Shown: one piece after another, positions 24,544-48,309 of the stretch | How positions within the stretch are numbered: position 1 is the stretch's first letter | How the letters are laid out: every line of letters starts with the position of its first letter | From: Streptomyces sp. MBT53 | GTDB taxonomy: Bacteria > Actinomycetota > Actinomycetes > Streptomycetales > Streptomycetaceae | Assembly (NCBI RefSeq): GCF_016654115.1 | Contig: NZ_JAEQAZ010000003.1 | Span: 62,001-126,000, forward strand | Reading direction: 5' to 3' | DNA length: 64,000 nt | Notes under the pieces: generated by a model | What the model saw: only the letters and a program-made list of their open reading frames with translations | The model's database searches: none | What the model was told of the DNA's origin: nothing | Translations under genes and position numbers: made by a program

Positions 24544-25797
24544 TCACCTAGAACGATCGGCGCCCGTGCCCCGGTTCCTGCGCAGCCGCTCCGGCACACC
24601 CACCCGCTCCCGGAGCCAGATCAGCCAGGGCAGGCGTTCGCGCTGCTCACTGGTGCACCGGTCGAGTTCCTCCAGCAGCCGGCGCGAGCGGTGCTCGGTG
24701 TCCAGCTCGTCCAGCATGCGGTTGACCTCGGTCAGCATGGCACCCAGCAACTGCCACTGGGCCGCGTCGCGCTGGACCTCCTCCAGGAGCAGCTGCGCCA
24801 GCTTGTCGCGGGTCGCGGCGGCCGTGTGCAGCTCGGCGCTGAGCCGCGACTCCGCCGACTCGGCGCTCACGCTGACATCGGTGGTCACCAGCACCGCGAA
24901 ACTCACCACGGCGTCCCCGATCTCGGACAGCAGCTGTTCTACGGCCGCGCCCGTCGGCGGTGCGAACAGCGCCTCGGGGTCGCGCTGTTTCGCCAGGTCG
25001 GTGAAGGTGCGCGCGAGGACCCGCAGCACGACCGTGCAGATCTCCAGGGTGTCCAGACCGGTCCGCAGCACGACCCGGTGCAGCAGCCCCTCCCGGACGC
25101 GCGGATTGAGCCGCAGGCTGTCCTCGGCCTGCCGCAGGGCCGCGTCCACCTCGACGATGTCGTGGTCGAGGCGGCGCGCCTCGTGCAGCCGCGCGGTGGC
25201 GTGGTCGACGGGGGTACGGCCCGCCGCCTCCTCGCCCATGCGCCGCATCAGCCGCCGCAGCCGACGGGCCAGGCCCTCGATGGACTCGCCTGCCTCGTCG
25301 ACCCATACCGGGGGAGCCAGCAGCAGATTGCAGCCGAAGCCGACGACCGCGCCGATCAGTGTCTCCACCACCCGTGCCCAGGCGGTGTTCCCGACCGTGG
25401 TGACGCCGAGGACCAGCATCGCGCTGATCGCCACCTCGGGCACGTACTCGTCGACCTTCACCAGCCGCCCGACGACCAGCGAGGCCACGATCAGCAGGGC
25501 CAGGCTCCACCAGGTCAGCCCGACCAGCAGACTGAACGCGATGGCGACGAGCACGCCCGCGACCACGGCGTTCACCCGGCGGATGCCGTTGGTGAGGGTG
25601 GCGTAGAGCGTGACCTGGACGACGAGGAGCGCGGTCAGGGGAGCGGTCAGCGGCGCGGGCTCCGGGCTCAGCCGCAGCGCGACGACATACGCGATCGTCG
25701 CCGCGGTCGCCGACCGCAGCGTCTGGACGAGCACCGGGTCCCGGTGCCGCCCCACGAACCGCACCAGTGGCGCGGTCCACTCCCGGACATCTCGCAT
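24544..25797 (-). CDS. FUSC-family (ArAE-like) membrane transporter
   Basis: This 417-residue protein has about six N-terminal membrane segments (about 25-165; motif VVQVTLYATLTNGIRRVNAVVAG) and a long cytoplasmic helical domain to the C-terminus, the usual plan of aromatic-acid exporter-like FUSC proteins. The C-terminal region (about 330-390) is strongly helical with likely coiled coil. Substrate unknown. The start is placed at ATG 25797; the SD is poor. Confidence 0.78.
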   Translation of the reverse strand: MRDVREWTAPLVRFVGRHRDPVLVQTLRSATAATIAYVVALRLSPEPAPLTAPLTALLVVQVTLYATLTNGIRRVNAVVAGVLVAIAFSLLVGLTWWSLALLIVASLVVGRLVKVDEYVPEVAISAMLVLGVTTVGNTAWARVVETLIGAVVGFGCNLLLAPPVWVDEAGESIEGLARRLRRLMRRMGEEAAGRTPVDHATARLHEARRLDHDIVEVDAALRQAEDSLRLNPRVREGLLHRVVLRTGLDTLEICTVVLRVLARTFTDLAKQRDPEALFAPPTGAAVEQLLSEIGDAVVSFAVLVTTDVSVSAESAESRLSAELHTAAATRDKLAQLLLEEVQRDAAQWQLLGAMLTEVNRMLDELDTEHRSRRLLEELDRCTSEQRERLPWLIWLRERVGVPERLRRNRGTGADRSR

Positions 25798-25840
25798 CCT
25801 TGGCCTATTCCCTCCTCGCGGATGCGCTGAACGTACCCAT

Positions 25841-25861
25841 TGCGGACCGTAACTGTCCGCA
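25841..25861. promoter_or_regulatory. Inverted repeat in FUSC / TIGR03086 divergent region
   Basis: TGCGGAC-N7-GTCCGCA is a perfect 7-bp inverted repeat spanning 21 bp, a typical size for a dimeric repressor site. It is 44 bp from the FUSC start and 52 bp from the TIGR03086 start. No regulator gene is adjacent. Confidence 0.45.
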
Positions 25862-25912
25862 TGGCCTCCTAGATTGTCCTCACCGGACGGGACGAAGAGG
25901 AGGGGAACGTTC

Positions 25913-26506
25913 ATGACGAACATCCAGGGCATCGAGGTACTGAACCGCTCGCACGACTACCTGCGCGAGGTGATCGCCGCCGTGCCGGAGGGCGCCTGGT
26001 CGGCACCCACGCCCTGCACCGAGTGGACGGTACGCCAGGTCCTCAACCACGCCCGCATCGACCAGCAGGCCTACGGTCTCGTCCTCACCGGCGACCGGCC
26101 CGACTCCGACCCCTTCCACCCCGCGGACGCGCTGGACGGTGACCCGGTCGCCGAACTCGACAAGGTGCTCCGCGCGGTGGCCGAGGGCTATGCCCGACTG
26201 CCCGCCGACGCGGATGAGGTGCCGACCCCGCTGGGCCCGATGCCCCTCCCGTTCGCCGCGGCGACGGCCGCCATGGACGCGGCCGTGCACGCCTGGGACA
26301 TCGCGGTCGCCACCGGCCAGAACCGGCCACTGACGCCGGACCTGGCAGAAGGAATCTGGCCGGCCGCGGACCGACTCGTCGACCAACTCCGCGACGCCTA
26401 CCGGGTGTTCGCACCCGCCCGAGAGGTGACGGCCGAGTACGACCGGGCCGAGGCGTTGCTCGCCTTCCTCGGCCGTGACCCGCACTGGACGCCCGCCGCG
26501 TCCTGA
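25913..26506 (+). CDS. TIGR03086-family metal-binding protein (DinB/MDMPI-like)
   Basis: This 197-residue four-helix-bundle protein of the mycothiol-dependent maleylpyruvate isomerase N-terminal superfamily has NRSHDYLREVI, CTEWTVRQVLNHA (metal-ligand His) and AAMDAAVHAWDIAVATGQ (second His region). Members are thought to bind a divalent metal and some act with mycothiol. The reaction is unknown. GAGGAGGGG precedes the ATG. Confidence 0.82.
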   Translation: MTNIQGIEVLNRSHDYLREVIAAVPEGAWSAPTPCTEWTVRQVLNHARIDQQAYGLVLTGDRPDSDPFHPADALDGDPVAELDKVLRAVAEGYARLPADADEVPTPLGPMPLPFAAATAAMDAAVHAWDIAVATGQNRPLTPDLAEGIWPAADRLVDQLRDAYRVFAPAREVTAEYDRAEALLAFLGRDPHWTPAAS

Positions 26507-26539: not shown

Positions 26540-27919
26540 ATGGCCTCCGTTCCCGGAGCGCGCGACCCTCGGACGATGACACGGCATCGGACCGGACTGA
26601 TCCTGACCCTGCTCATCGGCCTCGGTGCCGTGGCGGCCGGCACCCCGGACGCCACGGCAGCGCCTCCGACCCCATCGGCCTCGCCCGTGGTCACCGCCCT
26701 GGACCGCTCCGCCCACCCCCTGCGGACCGTCGAACCGGGCGGCGACACCGACGACCTGCGCCCGCTCGACCGCATGATCGGCGGCGCCACGGTCGTCGGC
26801 CTCGGCGAGGCCACCCACAGCTCGCACGACTTCTTCGCCCTCAAGGACCGCGTCTTCCGCCACCTCGTCGAGAAGAAGGGCTTCCGCACCTTCGCCCTGG
26901 AGGGCGCCTGGAGCACCGGCCTGCGGCTCGACGACTATGTCCTGTACGGCAAAGGGGATCCGCAGCGCATCATGCGCGAGGAGTTCCAGCGCGACTACCT
27001 GTGGTGGAACAACACCGACTATCTGCGGCTCGTCGAGTGGATGCGCGCGTACAACGTCCGGCACCCCGGCGACCCCGTCCGCTTCATGGGCGACGACATC
27101 GGCTGGGCCGGACCCGAGCTCTACGACTCGATCACCGCCCAAGTGGCCCGTATCCACCCGGAGTTGAGCACCCGCCTCGCCGAGCTGTACCGAGGGCTGC
27201 GGCCCACGGTCCCGGCCGGGACGTACATCCAGCAGTACCTGGACAAGCCGTACGCCGAACGGCAGGAGATGGCCGAACGCACGGGACGGGCACTGGAGTT
27301 GCTGAAGCGGCAGGCTCCGGGCAAGGACCGCGCGGCGTACGACTGGGCCGTTCAGAACGCGGCCGTCGTCGACCAGGTGGCCCGGCAGTACGACTTCGAC
27401 TTCGACCGACCCGCGCAGATCGCCGCCGCCATGCGCTACCGCGACGAGACGATGGCGGCCAACGTCGTCTGGTGGCAACGGCACACCGGTACCAAGGTGC
27501 TGCTGTCCGCGCACGACGCCCACATCGGGTACGTGCCGTCCGATCCGGTCAACTACCCCAAGATGCAAGGGGCGTTCCTCCGCGACACCCTCGGCAACGG
27601 GTATCTCAACGTGGGTCTGACCTTCGACCGGGGCTCGTTCAACGCCACCGGCCCGGACGACGCGATCCACCGCTGGACACTGGGACCGGCCGGCCCCGGC
27701 AGCAATGAACGGACCCTGGACCAGGTGCGGTTCACCGACTACCTGATCGATCTGCGCACGGTCGGATCACCGGCCCGCGCATGGCTCGACACGGCGCGGC
27801 CGACCCGCAGCATCGGTACCGCCTACCCGGAGGACCCCGGGAGCATCGCGCTGGCCCGCAGCTACGACGTCCTGGTCCACCTTCACCGCGTCACGGCCGC
27901 CCGGCTGCGCGACCGATAG
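26540..27919 (+). CDS. Secreted erythromycin esterase-family protein
   Basis: This 459-residue protein has an N-terminal signal peptide (hydrophobic stretch about 18-35, cleavage near ATA-AP). The mature part carries the EreA/EreB motifs GLGEATHSSHDFF (His and Glu), FALEGAW, RDETMAANVVW and LSAHDAHI (late His). The family hydrolyses the macrolide lactone ring in resistance enzymes, but many Streptomyces members have unknown substrates. A signal peptide implies an outside target. It overlaps the convergent CGNR gene by 37 bp. Confidence 0.85.
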   Translation: MASVPGARDPRTMTRHRTGLILTLLIGLGAVAAGTPDATAAPPTPSASPVVTALDRSAHPLRTVEPGGDTDDLRPLDRMIGGATVVGLGEATHSSHDFFALKDRVFRHLVEKKGFRTFALEGAWSTGLRLDDYVLYGKGDPQRIMREEFQRDYLWWNNTDYLRLVEWMRAYNVRHPGDPVRFMGDDIGWAGPELYDSITAQVARIHPELSTRLAELYRGLRPTVPAGTYIQQYLDKPYAERQEMAERTGRALELLKRQAPGKDRAAYDWAVQNAAVVDQVARQYDFDFDRPAQIAAAMRYRDETMAANVVWWQRHTGTKVLLSAHDAHIGYVPSDPVNYPKMQGAFLRDTLGNGYLNVGLTFDRGSFNATGPDDAIHRWTLGPAGPGSNERTLDQVRFTDYLIDLRTVGSPARAWLDTARPTRSIGTAYPEDPGSIALARSYDVLVHLHRVTAARLRDR

Positions 27920-28449
27920 CCCGCGATCTTCGCGAGGTTGCCGCAGCGGTCCATCGAGCACCAACGGCGGCGGCGGGCCTGGGAGTCGTCCAGGAACAGC
28001 AGTGAACACTCCGGGTTCTCGCACTCCTTGACCCGCTCCAGCAGCGGACCGCCCACCAGCAGGACGCCGTCCCGGGCCACCGTGGCCAGTGCCGCGCGCG
28101 CCGGATGCGCCGACTTCCAGCGCGGCTCGCCCAGTTGGGGCGCGAGATCCGGGCGCGCGGCGGCCTCGTTGACCCGCTCGACATCGGCCGCCGCCGGTTC
28201 CCGCCCGGCCATCGCGTCCCGTACGACCCGGTACAGCGCCTCGCGCAGGGTGCGCGCGTCGGTCAGCTCGCGGGCGGTTACCCGCACCGGTTCGGCGTCC
28301 GTCGACAGCTCCGCCTCCGCGATCCAGGTGGCCAGGGCGGCAGGGTCGGGGAGCCGCTCGACGGGGGTGGCGTGGCGTTTGCCGAGCGTCGCCACGAAGT
28401 TCAGGCACGGGCGTCCGCCGATGAACGGGAAGACGGGCGGAGTGGTCAT
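27883..28449 (-). CDS. CGNR zinc-finger / ABATE-domain regulator
   Basis: This 188-residue protein has an N-terminal ABATE domain (FIGGRPCLNFVATL at about 9-22, DARTLREALYRVV) and a C-terminal CGNR-type zinc finger (CENPECSLLFLD, WCSMDRCGNLAK) with four cysteines. Such proteins are probable stress-related transcription regulators. Upstream lie three copies of a palindrome shared with the divergent quinone oxidoreductase gene, consistent with this protein binding there. Confidence 0.87.
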   Translation of the reverse strand: MTTPPVFPFIGGRPCLNFVATLGKRHATPVERLPDPAALATWIAEAELSTDAEPVRVTARELTDARTLREALYRVVRDAMAGREPAAADVERVNEAAARPDLAPQLGEPRWKSAHPARAALATVARDGVLLVGGPLLERVKECENPECSLLFLDDSQARRRRWCSMDRCGNLAKIAGYRSRSRAAVTR

Positions 28450-28463
28450 GGCAGCGAGCCTAC

Positions 28464-28496
28464 CTCGCGCACACCGGTTCATGCGGTGTGCGCGAG
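28464..28496. promoter_or_regulatory. Operator 1 of the CGNR regulator region
   Basis: CTCGCGCACACC-N9-GGTGTGCGCGAG is a perfect 12-bp inverted repeat just upstream of the CGNR gene start. Its core ACACC-N9-GGTGT recurs at 28514 and 28542. Confidence 0.65.
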
Positions 28497-28513
28497 GAAT
28501 GCGGGCATGCCTT

Positions 28514-28534
28514 GACACCGCTTCGTACGGTGTC
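28514..28534. promoter_or_regulatory. Operator 2 of the CGNR regulator region
   Basis: GACACCG-N7-CGGTGTC overlaps a TTGACA (28512-28517) that can serve as the -35 of the divergent quinone oxidoreductase gene. Binding here should block that promoter. Confidence 0.65.
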
Positions 28535-28541
28535 GCATGGT

Positions 28542-28562
28542 GACACCAGTTCAAATGGTGTC
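28542..28562. promoter_or_regulatory. Operator 3 of the CGNR regulator region
   Basis: GACACCA-N7-TGGTGTC is the third copy, 28 bp from operator 2. All three have a TTC near the centre of the spacer. Confidence 0.65.
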
Positions 28563-28601
28563 GGCCGGGTTCGGGGGCCGCGACAGGGAGTGGGTGGCGG
28601 T

Positions 28602-29603
28602 ATGCGTGCGGTACGGATCGACGAGTTCGGCGGGCCCGAGGTGCTGGTGCCGGTCGAGATGCCCGACCCGGTCGCGGGTCCGGGGCAGGTGCTGGTGCGG
28701 GTCGCCGCGGCGGGCGTGAACCGCGCGGACGCCCTGATCAGGTCCGGGAACTACCACCGGGCCGGACGCCCGCCGCTGATCCCGGGAGTGGAAGGCGCGG
28801 GTACCGTCGCCGCGTTGGGCGAGGGCGTCACCGGATTCTCCGTCGGCCAGCGGGTCGTGGCCCTCGACGGCGTCAACTCACCAGGTTTCTACGCCGAGTT
28901 GGCGGCCGTGCCCGCGACGCAGGTGACCGCCCTGCCCGACGGCATCGACCTCACGCATGCCGCCGCGCTGCCCGTCGCCTGGCTGTCGGCCTGGTACTGC
29001 CTGCGGCACCTAGCCCGCGTCACCAAGGAGGACACGGTGGTCGTGAAGGCCGCCGCGAGCGGGGTCGGCAGCGCGGCCGTGCAGATCGCGGCCGAGACCG
29101 GCGCCCGCGTCGTCGCACTCGCCGGATCGCCCGAAAAGGCCGCCTGGGCAGGGGAGTTCGGCGCCCATGCGACCGTCGACACCTCGGCGCACCCGGACGA
29201 CGCCGAGGTCGACGAGGTGCTGCGGCTCACCGACGGGCGCGGCGCGGATGTCGTCCTCGACACCGTCGGCGGACGGGCCTTCGGGCGCAGCCTGCGCGAG
29301 ATCGGACACGGCGGCCGGGTCGTCGCCCTCGCCAATGTCGCCCTGGAGACAAGCACCGTCGACACCCGCGACTTCTACCCGAAGAACGCCTCGATCCTCG
29401 GCTTCCAGCTCACCAACCTCCAGGTCCACGGCGGCTACGACCCCCGCCCGGACCTGCGTGAACTGGCCGAACGGGTCGCCGCCGGCACCTACCGCGTGCC
29501 GATCGAGACGGTCGTACCCCTCGCCGAGGCACGTGCCGCCCACGAGCGGCTCGAGCGACGCGACAACCGGGGCAAGATCGTCATCGCGGTGCCGGGAGAG
29601 TGA
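28602..29603 (+). CDS. NADPH:quinone oxidoreductase-like MDR protein
   Basis: This 333-residue medium-chain dehydrogenase of the QOR group has GVEGAGTVAALGEG and the cofactor loop VVKAAASGVGSAAVQIA. The structural zinc cysteines are absent, as usual in the quinone reductase branch. It should reduce quinones or enones with NADPH. Transcribed away from the CGNR regulator and preceded by its three operators, so I infer control by that regulator, perhaps in response to electrophiles. Confidence 0.87.
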   Translation: MRAVRIDEFGGPEVLVPVEMPDPVAGPGQVLVRVAAAGVNRADALIRSGNYHRAGRPPLIPGVEGAGTVAALGEGVTGFSVGQRVVALDGVNSPGFYAELAAVPATQVTALPDGIDLTHAAALPVAWLSAWYCLRHLARVTKEDTVVVKAAASGVGSAAVQIAAETGARVVALAGSPEKAAWAGEFGAHATVDTSAHPDDAEVDEVLRLTDGRGADVVLDTVGGRAFGRSLREIGHGGRVVALANVALETSTVDTRDFYPKNASILGFQLTNLQVHGGYDPRPDLRELAERVAAGTYRVPIETVVPLAEARAAHERLERRDNRGKIVIAVPGE

Positions 29604-46449: not shown

Positions 46450-48309
46450 TCAGTGCGAAGGCAGTTCACGGTCACCGGACGGACGCGACCACCACACCCC
46501 CTCGCCGCGTGTGAGCCCGGGCAGGGCCGACTCCACGTCCCGCACCCGCCGGGCCGGCAGCTCACCGGTGATCAGCCAGGAGTCGACGCCACCCGTGGTA
46601 CCCGTGAACTCGGCGCGACAGGAGGCGAGTTGCGCGGTCACCGGTGCTAGCGCGTCCTGCGGGACCTCCGCCTCGAACGCGACGTACGGCTCGTACAGCC
46701 GTGTCCCCGCCTGCCGCAGCGCCCGGCGCAGCACGATCGGCGTGAGGCCGCGGAAGTCGCCGGCCGTACTGAGCGGGCCGACGAATCCCGACCGGGTGAG
46801 GGTGACCCGGTAGTCCGTCACCGGCGCGCCGTGCAGTCCGCCGAGCAGGGTTGAGTGGACCGTGTCCTCGACGGCCTGGTGGAACGCGCGGGGGAGCGCG
46901 CCGAGTTGGGTCTCGTACGCGAAGATCCCGCCGGAGCCGCGCGGTCCCGGTTCGACGCGCAGCCCGATCGTCGCCCAGTAGCGGGTGCCGTCGTGCCACG
47001 GCCATTCGTCGCAGGCCTCGCCGGTCCCGGCCGGGCGTTCCAGGAACCGCACCCGGCTCGGCTCGAAGTCGGCCTCGACGCCGAAGTCCTGGACGAGGGT
47101 CGCCGCGAGCACTTCCTTCTGGACCTCGCCGTACAGGAGCAGCACGGTCGCCCCGGAGGCGGCGGGCCGCGCGTGCAGCAGCGGGTCCTGGTCGGCCAGC
47201 GCCAGCAGCGCCGAACGCAGCGCCGCCGCCTGCTCGGGACGCCGGGCCCGTACGACGGTCTCCAGCGTCGGCGGCGCGAACTGCGGTGCCCGCTCGGTGA
47301 GTTCACCGAGCCGGTCGCCGACCCGGATGTCCTTCGGGCCGGTCAGCGCGCCGATGTTCCCGGCCGTGAGCGGTCCGGGCCGGCCGATCACATCGAGCCG
47401 CGTGACCCGCCCGGAGACCTCGACGGCCCGCCCGTCCGCCCCGTGCCGGCGGAACGTGAGCCGCTGCTGCGGGGCCACCTCACCGTCGTAGAGCCGCAGA
47501 TACGCCGTCCGTTCGCGGCCGGGACCGGGGCGTACCGCGAACACCGTGCCGCGAGGGGTGCCCGAACCGGACGTCGCGGGCGGGATCAACTGGACCAGTC
47601 GGGCGACGAGTTCGGGGATTCCCTGGCCGCCGAGGGCCGAGCCGAACAGGAGCGGGTGGATCGAGCCGTCGGCGGTGCGGGTGGCGAGGGCCTTGCTCAG
47701 GTCGTCCGGTGTGGGATGCGGGCCGTCGACCACCGCCGCGAGGACGGACGGGTCGACGTCGGCCAGGGCCTCGGCCAGGTCCGGGTCGCCGGGCGGGCGG
47801 GGCAGGACACGGGCGGCGGGCGTGCCGAGGCCCGTCACGTCCATGAGCGGTGCCACGTGCGGGGTCAGCCGACGTCGGATGTCCGCGACGAGGTCGTCGG
47901 AGCGGGCGCCCGCGCGGTCGATCTTGTTGACGAAGACAAGCGTGGGCAGCCGTAGCCGCCGCAGGGTCCGCAGCAGGACGCGGGTCTGTGCCTGGACGCC
48001 CTCCACTGCGGACAGCAGCAGCACCGCGCCGTCGAGGACTTCCAGGGCGCGCTCGACCTCCGCGATGAAGTCCGCGTGGCCGGGGGTGTCGATCAGGTTG
48101 ATCTGGGTGTCGCCGGACGTGAAGGCGGCGACGGCCGAACGGATGGTGATCCCGCGCTGCCGCTCGATCGCGCCGTCGTCCGTACGGGTGTCACCGGCGT
48201 CGACACTGCCGAGCCGGTCGGTCGCGCCGTGGTCGAACAGCAGCCGCTCGGTGAGGCTGGTCTTACCGGCGTCGACGTGGGCCAGAATTCCGATGTTCAG
48301 GGTGTGCAT
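46450..48309 (-). CDS. TetM/OtrA-like ribosomal protection GTPase
   Basis: This 619-residue EF-G-like translational GTPase has G1 AHVDAGKTSL, G3 DTPGHADF and G4 VNKIDRAG, then domains II-V. The family (Tet(M) 639, Otr(A) 663 residues) removes tetracyclines from the ribosome. Streptomyces carries several homologues, only some of which give resistance. The domain IV and C-terminal tip that contacts the decoding centre (about 520-600) is present. ATG at 48309 has GAGGAC upstream; a 47-codon leader frame ends just before it. Divergent from the PRPP synthetase gene. Confidence 0.9.
   Translation of the reverse strand: MHTLNIGILAHVDAGKTSLTERLLFDHGATDRLGSVDAGDTRTDDGAIERQRGITIRSAVAAFTSGDTQINLIDTPGHADFIAEVERALEVLDGAVLLLSAVEGVQAQTRVLLRTLRRLRLPTLVFVNKIDRAGARSDDLVADIRRRLTPHVAPLMDVTGLGTPAARVLPRPPGDPDLAEALADVDPSVLAAVVDGPHPTPDDLSKALATRTADGSIHPLLFGSALGGQGIPELVARLVQLIPPATSGSGTPRGTVFAVRPGPGRERTAYLRLYDGEVAPQQRLTFRRHGADGRAVEVSGRVTRLDVIGRPGPLTAGNIGALTGPKDIRVGDRLGELTERAPQFAPPTLETVVRARRPEQAAALRSALLALADQDPLLHARPAASGATVLLLYGEVQKEVLAATLVQDFGVEADFEPSRVRFLERPAGTGEACDEWPWHDGTRYWATIGLRVEPGPRGSGGIFAYETQLGALPRAFHQAVEDTVHSTLLGGLHGAPVTDYRVTLTRSGFVGPLSTAGDFRGLTPIVLRRALRQAGTRLYEPYVAFEAEVPQDALAPVTAQLASCRAEFTGTTGGVDSWLITGELPARRVRDVESALPGLTRGEGVWWSRPSGDRELPSH

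Follow-up and report, generated by a model that had tools for sequence, protein, structure and literature searches.

The window, the whole 64,000-nt stretch of Streptomyces sp. MBT53 DNA that was analysed, carries two genes placed back-to-back. A gene for a 188-residue ABATE/zf-CGNR regulator (27883-28449, minus strand) was recognised from its translation and Pfam matches, and a gene for a 333-residue PIG3-like oxidoreductase of the MDR superfamily (28602-29603, plus strand) from its translation and profile matches. The regulator matched PF07336 (ABATE; E 9.8e-26, 91.3 bits against a curated cut-off of 24.4) as well as PF11706 (zf-CGNR; E 2.2e-18, 66.2 bits against a curated cut-off of 24). 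Its predicted zinc ligands are C143, C148, C164 and C169. In 77 homologues C143, C148 and C169 were invariant and C164, G170 and N171 were present in at least 90%; the CGNR motif of the window protein reads CGNL. When an AlphaFold2 model of the protein (mean pLDDT 94.1) was compared with the PDB by Foldseek, 3h0n was the only match at E ≤ 0.001 (E 4.3e-6, TM 0.63-0.64), and a sequence search of solved structures returned three designed proteins and nothing else. The window protein fits the ABATE/zf-CGNR family in domains, cysteines and fold. The CGNR zinc finger was detected in 268 of 393 sampled genomes of the class, with up to 11 matches per genome.

The divergent partner had been read from the sequence as a quinone reductase. 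PF08240, PF00107 and PF13602 support this at the level of the MDR superfamily only; the narrower PIG3 family assignment did not hold, as TIGR02824 (PIG3-type quinone oxidoreductase) scored 242.4 bits, below its cut-off of 296.8. Since this profile stayed below its cut-off, induction of the system by quinones is a guess.

Between the two genes three palindromes of 19 bp each match ACACC-N9-GGTGT (no strand assigned): site C (core 28471-28489, ACACCGGTTCATGCGGTGT, within arms spanning 28463-28497), site B (28515-28533, ACACCGCTTCGTACGGTGT) and site A (28543-28561, ACACCAGTTCAAATGGTGT). They are spaced start-to-start by 44 bp (C to B) and 28 bp (B to A). Their position is that claimed in the sequence-only reading, and the central TTC it described was seen in all three at an identical offset on the plus strand. 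The perfect arms that it ascribed to the first palindrome were likewise present, but with a length of 14 bp instead of 12 bp (28463-28476 and 28484-28497, read from the sequence). Exact matches to ACACCNNTTCNNNNGGTGT in the whole 11.3-Mb genome were restricted to sites A, B and C. With up to two mismatches, six matches were counted in the window against a mean of 1.17 and a maximum of 4 in 100 shuffles, two of the six being the same sites on the opposite strand and one an unrelated site at 46494. At the same threshold the genome contained 101 forward and 108 reverse matches, compared with 42 and 53 when the pattern was read backwards.

Promoter elements were assigned by eye. The inferred -35 of the oxidoreductase gene, TTGACA (28512-28517, plus strand), overlaps site B, in line with the claim that the second palindrome covers a -35. 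It is followed after an 18-nt spacer by an inferred -10, CATGGT (28536-28541, plus strand), which lies between B and A and of which the A at position 2 and the T at position 6 are retained in orthologues, as also read by eye; the inferred transcription start falls within site A. For the CGNR gene, TAGGCT (28457-28462, minus strand), 7 nt ahead of the ATG, was taken as the -10, and the place expected for its -35 is covered by site C. The palindromes overlap both of these by-eye promoters, while a generic sigma-70 promoter and terminator scan of 28350-28700 returned neither. Since the sites lie over both inferred promoters, binding would hinder transcription of both genes, and the best reading of the arrangement is an autoregulated repressor divergon.

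To follow the divergon through the genus, 199 genomes were searched. An orthologue of the CGNR protein (at least 70% identity) was detected in 10 of them, the window's own included, with next matches at no more than 48%. In all 10 the divergent partner was present together with between one and three sites when a single mismatch was allowed, and a search with the partner (E ≤ 1e-75) returned the identical 10 genomes and none besides among the 199. A class-wide search added L067 and L068 as further orthologous loci; they appear identical to L066 and L040, so that they possibly do not represent separate species. In a motif-first scan, 84,980 species genomes were searched for the tandem ACACCN9GGTGT-N9-ACACCN9GGTGT. 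This yielded 28 stretches (27 records of Streptomyces and one of Amycolatopsis), all 28 being flanked by a CGNR homologue (51-96% identity) on one side and the partner (62-97%) on the other. The resulting 40 orthologous loci (10 protein-first, 28 motif-first, plus L067 and L068) contain 107 sites at up to one mismatch, with three sites in 28 loci, two in 11 and one in a single locus. The half-site consensus of the orthologues is GACACC followed by a variable base, S, T and T, with a central C or G. A distance of 28 bp between A and B was found in 11 of the 12 loci chosen without that criterion (the exception being L018); the remaining 28 of the 40 were selected for it. Across the entire ten genomes, GACACCNNTTNAANNGGTGTC with two mismatches allowed had 32 matches, of which 24 were located at the divergon. 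The 8 matches elsewhere are about as many as the 7 obtained with the backward control, so the regulon of the CGNR protein looks local on these counts.

Two further features of the orthologous loci were observed. The outer arms of site C are as in the window in L047, and L061 and L063 lack them. In L010, L042, L049 and L064 their sequence has changed with complementarity kept, and in L058 a single mismatch interrupts the pairing; the extended arms are perhaps a second recognition element or a cruciform. The C-B distances in the 28 three-site divergons are 23, 25, 41-44, 54-55, 74-77 and 119 bp. These lie roughly whole helical turns apart, and an importance of phasing is suggestive only (p = 0.014, with five hand-made clusters).

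According to the sequence-only reading, the palindromes provide a concrete motif for the CGNR family, and absence of the motif next to other CGNR genes would count against it. Taken literally, it is absent: at up to one mismatch the exact motif was found in 0 of 20 distant loci (L019-L038), whose CGNR homologues are about 40% identical. This absence led to a de novo palindrome search upstream of homologues with 35-55% identity, in which 23-bp palindromes such as TGTAACCAGTTATATTGGTTACA, CGTCACCGGTTCAACTGGTGACG and GGTTACCGGTTAATCCGGTAACT were detected. A collection of 206 CGNR genes was then used, 190 of which had usable upstream DNA; 119 were non-redundant at 75%, comprising 28 nearer and 91 distant genes, the latter drawn from Actinomycetota, with Streptomyces paralogues among them, and from plasmids belonging to other phyla. 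The top enriched gapped 8-mers upstream of the 91 distant genes were TAACCNNT, TAACNNGT and ACCNGTNA, the last being present upstream of 42 genes against 8.7 expected.

A half-site, ACCNGTYA, was fixed in advance of its tests. Among the distant genes used for training it was found upstream of 35 of 91 (in-gene 0, shuffle mean 3.8), in the nearer set upstream of 10 of 28 (in-gene 1, shuffle mean 1.4), in a held-out set upstream of 10 of 25 (in-gene 0, shuffle mean 0.9) and in a fresh set upstream of 25 of 64 (in-gene 1). Read backwards, it matched 0 of 25 held-out and 1 of 64 fresh upstream regions. Upstream of TetR genes from the same genomes it was found in 0 of 25 cases, and other 215-nt windows of the loci contained it in 41 of 1804. 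The held-out set started from 40 places, of which a repeat (L185), three already-seen loci (L259, L262, L263) and two at contig edges (L260, L261) were removed before analysis; from the remaining 34, seven genes at least 75% identical to training genes and two at edges were subtracted. The fresh set of 106 CGNR loci was reduced by 24 redundant with earlier genes, 14 mutually redundant and 4 at edges, and for the TetR control 30 loci were fetched, 28 used and 25 long enough.

Many other CGNR genes, though fewer than half, thus have a half-site related to that of the window in their upstream DNA, and these genes span three phyla. Outside Actinomycetota, four plasmid loci out of 10 (those from Ensifer, Pantoea, Alicyclobacillus and Mesorhizobium) contained an exact copy. 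The plasmid records covered were 11, picked for spread among the 60 listed of 206 with a CGNR match. Five further CGNR paralogues of the window's genome have usable upstream DNA, and two of them (L134, L138) carry ACCNGTYA. The exact half-site was missing upstream of 56 of 91 training genes, 15 of 25 held-out genes, 39 of 64 fresh genes and 18 of 28 nearer homologues; as more than half of the genes are without an exact copy, the family element is either looser than ACCNGTYA or not universal. Of the claim to a family motif, the enrichment beside other CGNR genes thus stood for the generalised half-site, with an exact copy at fewer than half of them, and the exact form belongs to one subfamily only. 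Judging from these comparisons, the half-site of the family is looser, and ACACC-N9-GGTGT is the form that it takes in one subfamily. ACC-N9-GGT was also tried as a family-wide form and rejected: it was found in 34 of 119 against about 9 in shuffles and was common in the nearer set only (21 of 28).

The divergent neighbours of other CGNR genes differ from the oxidoreductase of the window. They include an L-PSP/RidA-like protein (L082), a mycothiol-dependent maleylpyruvate isomerase-like protein (L073), a HAD hydrolase (L084) and a hydroxyisobutyrate dehydrogenase-like protein (L021); only these four are named, because calling partners by the longest divergent frame gave many spurious G+C-rich frames. 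Neighbours in the plasmid records comprise alpha/beta hydrolases, MFS and EamA transporters and others. As the divergent neighbours vary, the half-site seems to go with the regulator rather than with the partner gene. In several distant upstream regions (e.g. L133 and L184) ACCNGTYA-like half-sites are repeated, and same-strand spacings of 18, 23 or 30 bp are more frequent than expected, which would fit dimers or multimers arranged in other ways.

We compared the base directly 5' of ACC with each alignable column of the CGNR proteins. From 224 aligned genes, 119 had an assignable base and 66 remained after reduction at 75% redundancy; the genes left without a base had no exact site (89), belonged to nearer loci whose arms were weak or unequal (11), gave a tie (4) or were short (1). 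Over 168 columns the top three were I175 (z 10.3), N171 (the N of CGNR; z 9.4) and Y178 (z 7.3), the best ABATE column reaching 5.4. After addition of the fresh set (n = 88, 167 columns), N171, I175 and Y178 led with z values of 10.4, 10.4 and 8.7, followed by K141 (7.4) and A120 (7.0). In these 88, proteins with N171 and Y178 were associated with C in 18 cases, A in 3, G in 2 and T in 1, and those with N171 and a residue other than Tyr with A in 40, G in 5, C in 4 and T in 3. Proteins lacking N171 and having M175 were associated with T in 9 cases and G in 1, and the others with G and C once each. Among N171 proteins the link of Tyr178 to a pyrimidine gave Fisher p values, which ignore relatedness, of 1.2e-6 (n = 66) and 3.8e-8 (n = 88). 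The three residues stand at i, i+4 and i+7 of a single predicted helix, residues 166-187 (codons at 27889-27954, minus strand), which the AlphaFold2 model and the covariation together mark as the predicted recognition helix. Such a spacing on one helix is what a recognition helix would look like.

The ranking depended on the subset. In the distant subset alone I175 and N171 were first and second and Y178 fourth, and at 50% redundancy Y178 ranked fifth. In the nearer subset alone K141 led, Y178 was second and I175 and N171 were outside the top eight; as the Tyr link was first spotted by eye in the nearer set, this set is not independent of the Tyr hypothesis. In a nearest-neighbour contrast I175 came first and Y178 seventh, and N171 was not special. 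A tree-based independent-pairs test gave 1-5 supported pairs, too few to reach significance. When the base rule was applied to 22 genes of the fresh set (37 without a site, 4 ties and 1 disagreement being excluded), 16 of 22 bases were called correctly, compared with 14 of 22 for a constant call of A (Fisher p 0.08). These tests do not clear the covariation of shared ancestry, and the evidence for a contact between the CGNR helix and the base directly before ACC is good but not conclusive. For a broader proposal we see about even chances: CGNR fingers across bacteria would share a code, in which the helix that follows the third zinc cysteine would recognise ACCNGTYA and the identity of the base on the 5' side of ACC would depend on residues 171, 175 and 178 (Asn with Tyr, C; Asn with non-Tyr, A; Ala or Ser with Met, T), while subfamilies would differ in the arrangement of half-sites. 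In L071, L076 and L079, ACG replaces ACC in the palindrome core and the Met after the third zinc cysteine is lost (WCSM to WCSD or WCSS), a possible second residue-base link in few sequences.

Taken together, the three palindromes are very probably binding sites of the adjoining CGNR regulator. Their assignment as its operators, put forward in the sequence-only reading, is supported by the co-occurrence at 10 of 10 loci and in 28 of 28 stretches as well as by the helix-base covariation. We hold it to be likely, with considerable confidence, that the palindromes are operators through which the protein acts as an autoregulated dimeric repressor, with helix 166-187 in the half-sites and both genes blocked. 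The CGNR protein would then be a one-component repressor, presumably dimeric, and the helix after the third zinc cysteine of its C-terminal treble-clef finger would enter each half-site, which here is GACACC, a variable base, S, T and T. Binding to B and A, on the -35 and the start of the oxidoreductase promoter, and to C, upstream of the regulator's -10, would block both genes, and a putative ligand of the ABATE domain would free the repressor from DNA.

Alternatively, the CGNR protein might bind these sites and activate the oxidoreductase gene instead of repressing it. Multiple upstream sites can serve activation, and site C does lie upstream of both genes. However, the oxidoreductase gene has its inferred -35 under B and its inferred start under A, positions from which polymerase is usually blocked, and the 28-bp arrangement was kept in 11 of the 12 orthologous loci not selected for it. 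Activation is therefore considered unlikely.

It is still less probable that both genes are controlled through the palindromes by a regulator encoded in trans, for instance of the TetR or MarR type, with the CGNR protein as nothing but a target. Within the genus, only 10 of 199 genomes have the gene pair with its sites, the two-gene unit encodes no regulator other than the CGNR protein, and away from the divergon these genomes contain about as many matches as the backward control (8 versus 7). Moreover, related sites are found upstream of CGNR genes with other divergent enzymes (L021, L073, L082, L084) and the operator base covaries with the CGNR helix, all of which argues against such a factor even though many dimeric regulators typically use palindromes this long.

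RNA hairpins or terminators would account for the 14-bp perfect arms at site C and for their changing together in several close orthologues, but they are a very improbable explanation: with the inferred starts downstream of B and C, neither site would be transcribed, the terminator scan of 28350-28700 was negative, and the bases ACACC/GGTGT are themselves conserved, beyond complementarity. Chance repeats are practically discounted, as all three exact matches in 11.3 Mb fall at the divergon and the conservation of 107 sites across 40 orthologous loci already refutes them.

The repressor reading places the locus beside divergent autoregulated one-component repressors, of the TetR type among others, in which the regulator lies back-to-back with an enzyme gene and palindromic operators cover both promoters. 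The gene order and the palindromes over both promoters, here inferred ones, are shared with such TetR-type systems, whereas these use a helix-turn-helix and the CGNR system a treble-clef zinc finger, with an ACCNGTYA-like half-site whose arrangement differs between subfamilies.

Within the family itself, Jann_2411 (PDB 3h0n) is the founding structure of the ABATE and zf-CGNR domains, for which the passages of PMC2954205 consulted here predict a DNA-binding C-terminal domain and a ligand-related function of ABATE. Jann_2411 and the window protein have two domains, a four-cysteine treble-clef zinc finger and the same fold in common. These passages of PMC2954205 name no DNA target, whereas a target, a promoter geometry and candidate base-reading residues are proposed here. 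A transcriptome paper (PMC9976334) also matched the topic. In the open-access library searched, a DNA target of any CGNR protein was not found.

The most interesting outcome is the residue-base covariation in the zinc-finger helix. If the proposed code is true of CGNR fingers across bacteria, the operators of thousands of uncharacterised regulators would become predictable from sequence. A defined operator with a residue-to-base rule would tie these regulators to genes and ligands by sequence, give the ABATE fold a first reporter system and add a treble-clef zinc finger of bacteria for which a base-reading code is proposed.

Two genes in the surroundings of the divergon also recur. An erythromycin esterase family gene (PF05139; 26540-27919, plus strand) is convergent to the CGNR gene and is matched in at least 9 of the 40 loci with the divergon, a minimum figure given how short many of them are. 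A FUSC/aromatic acid exporter-like gene (24544-25932, minus strand) has a match in at least 25 of the 40, and the divergon module therefore often retains a FUSC-like neighbour.
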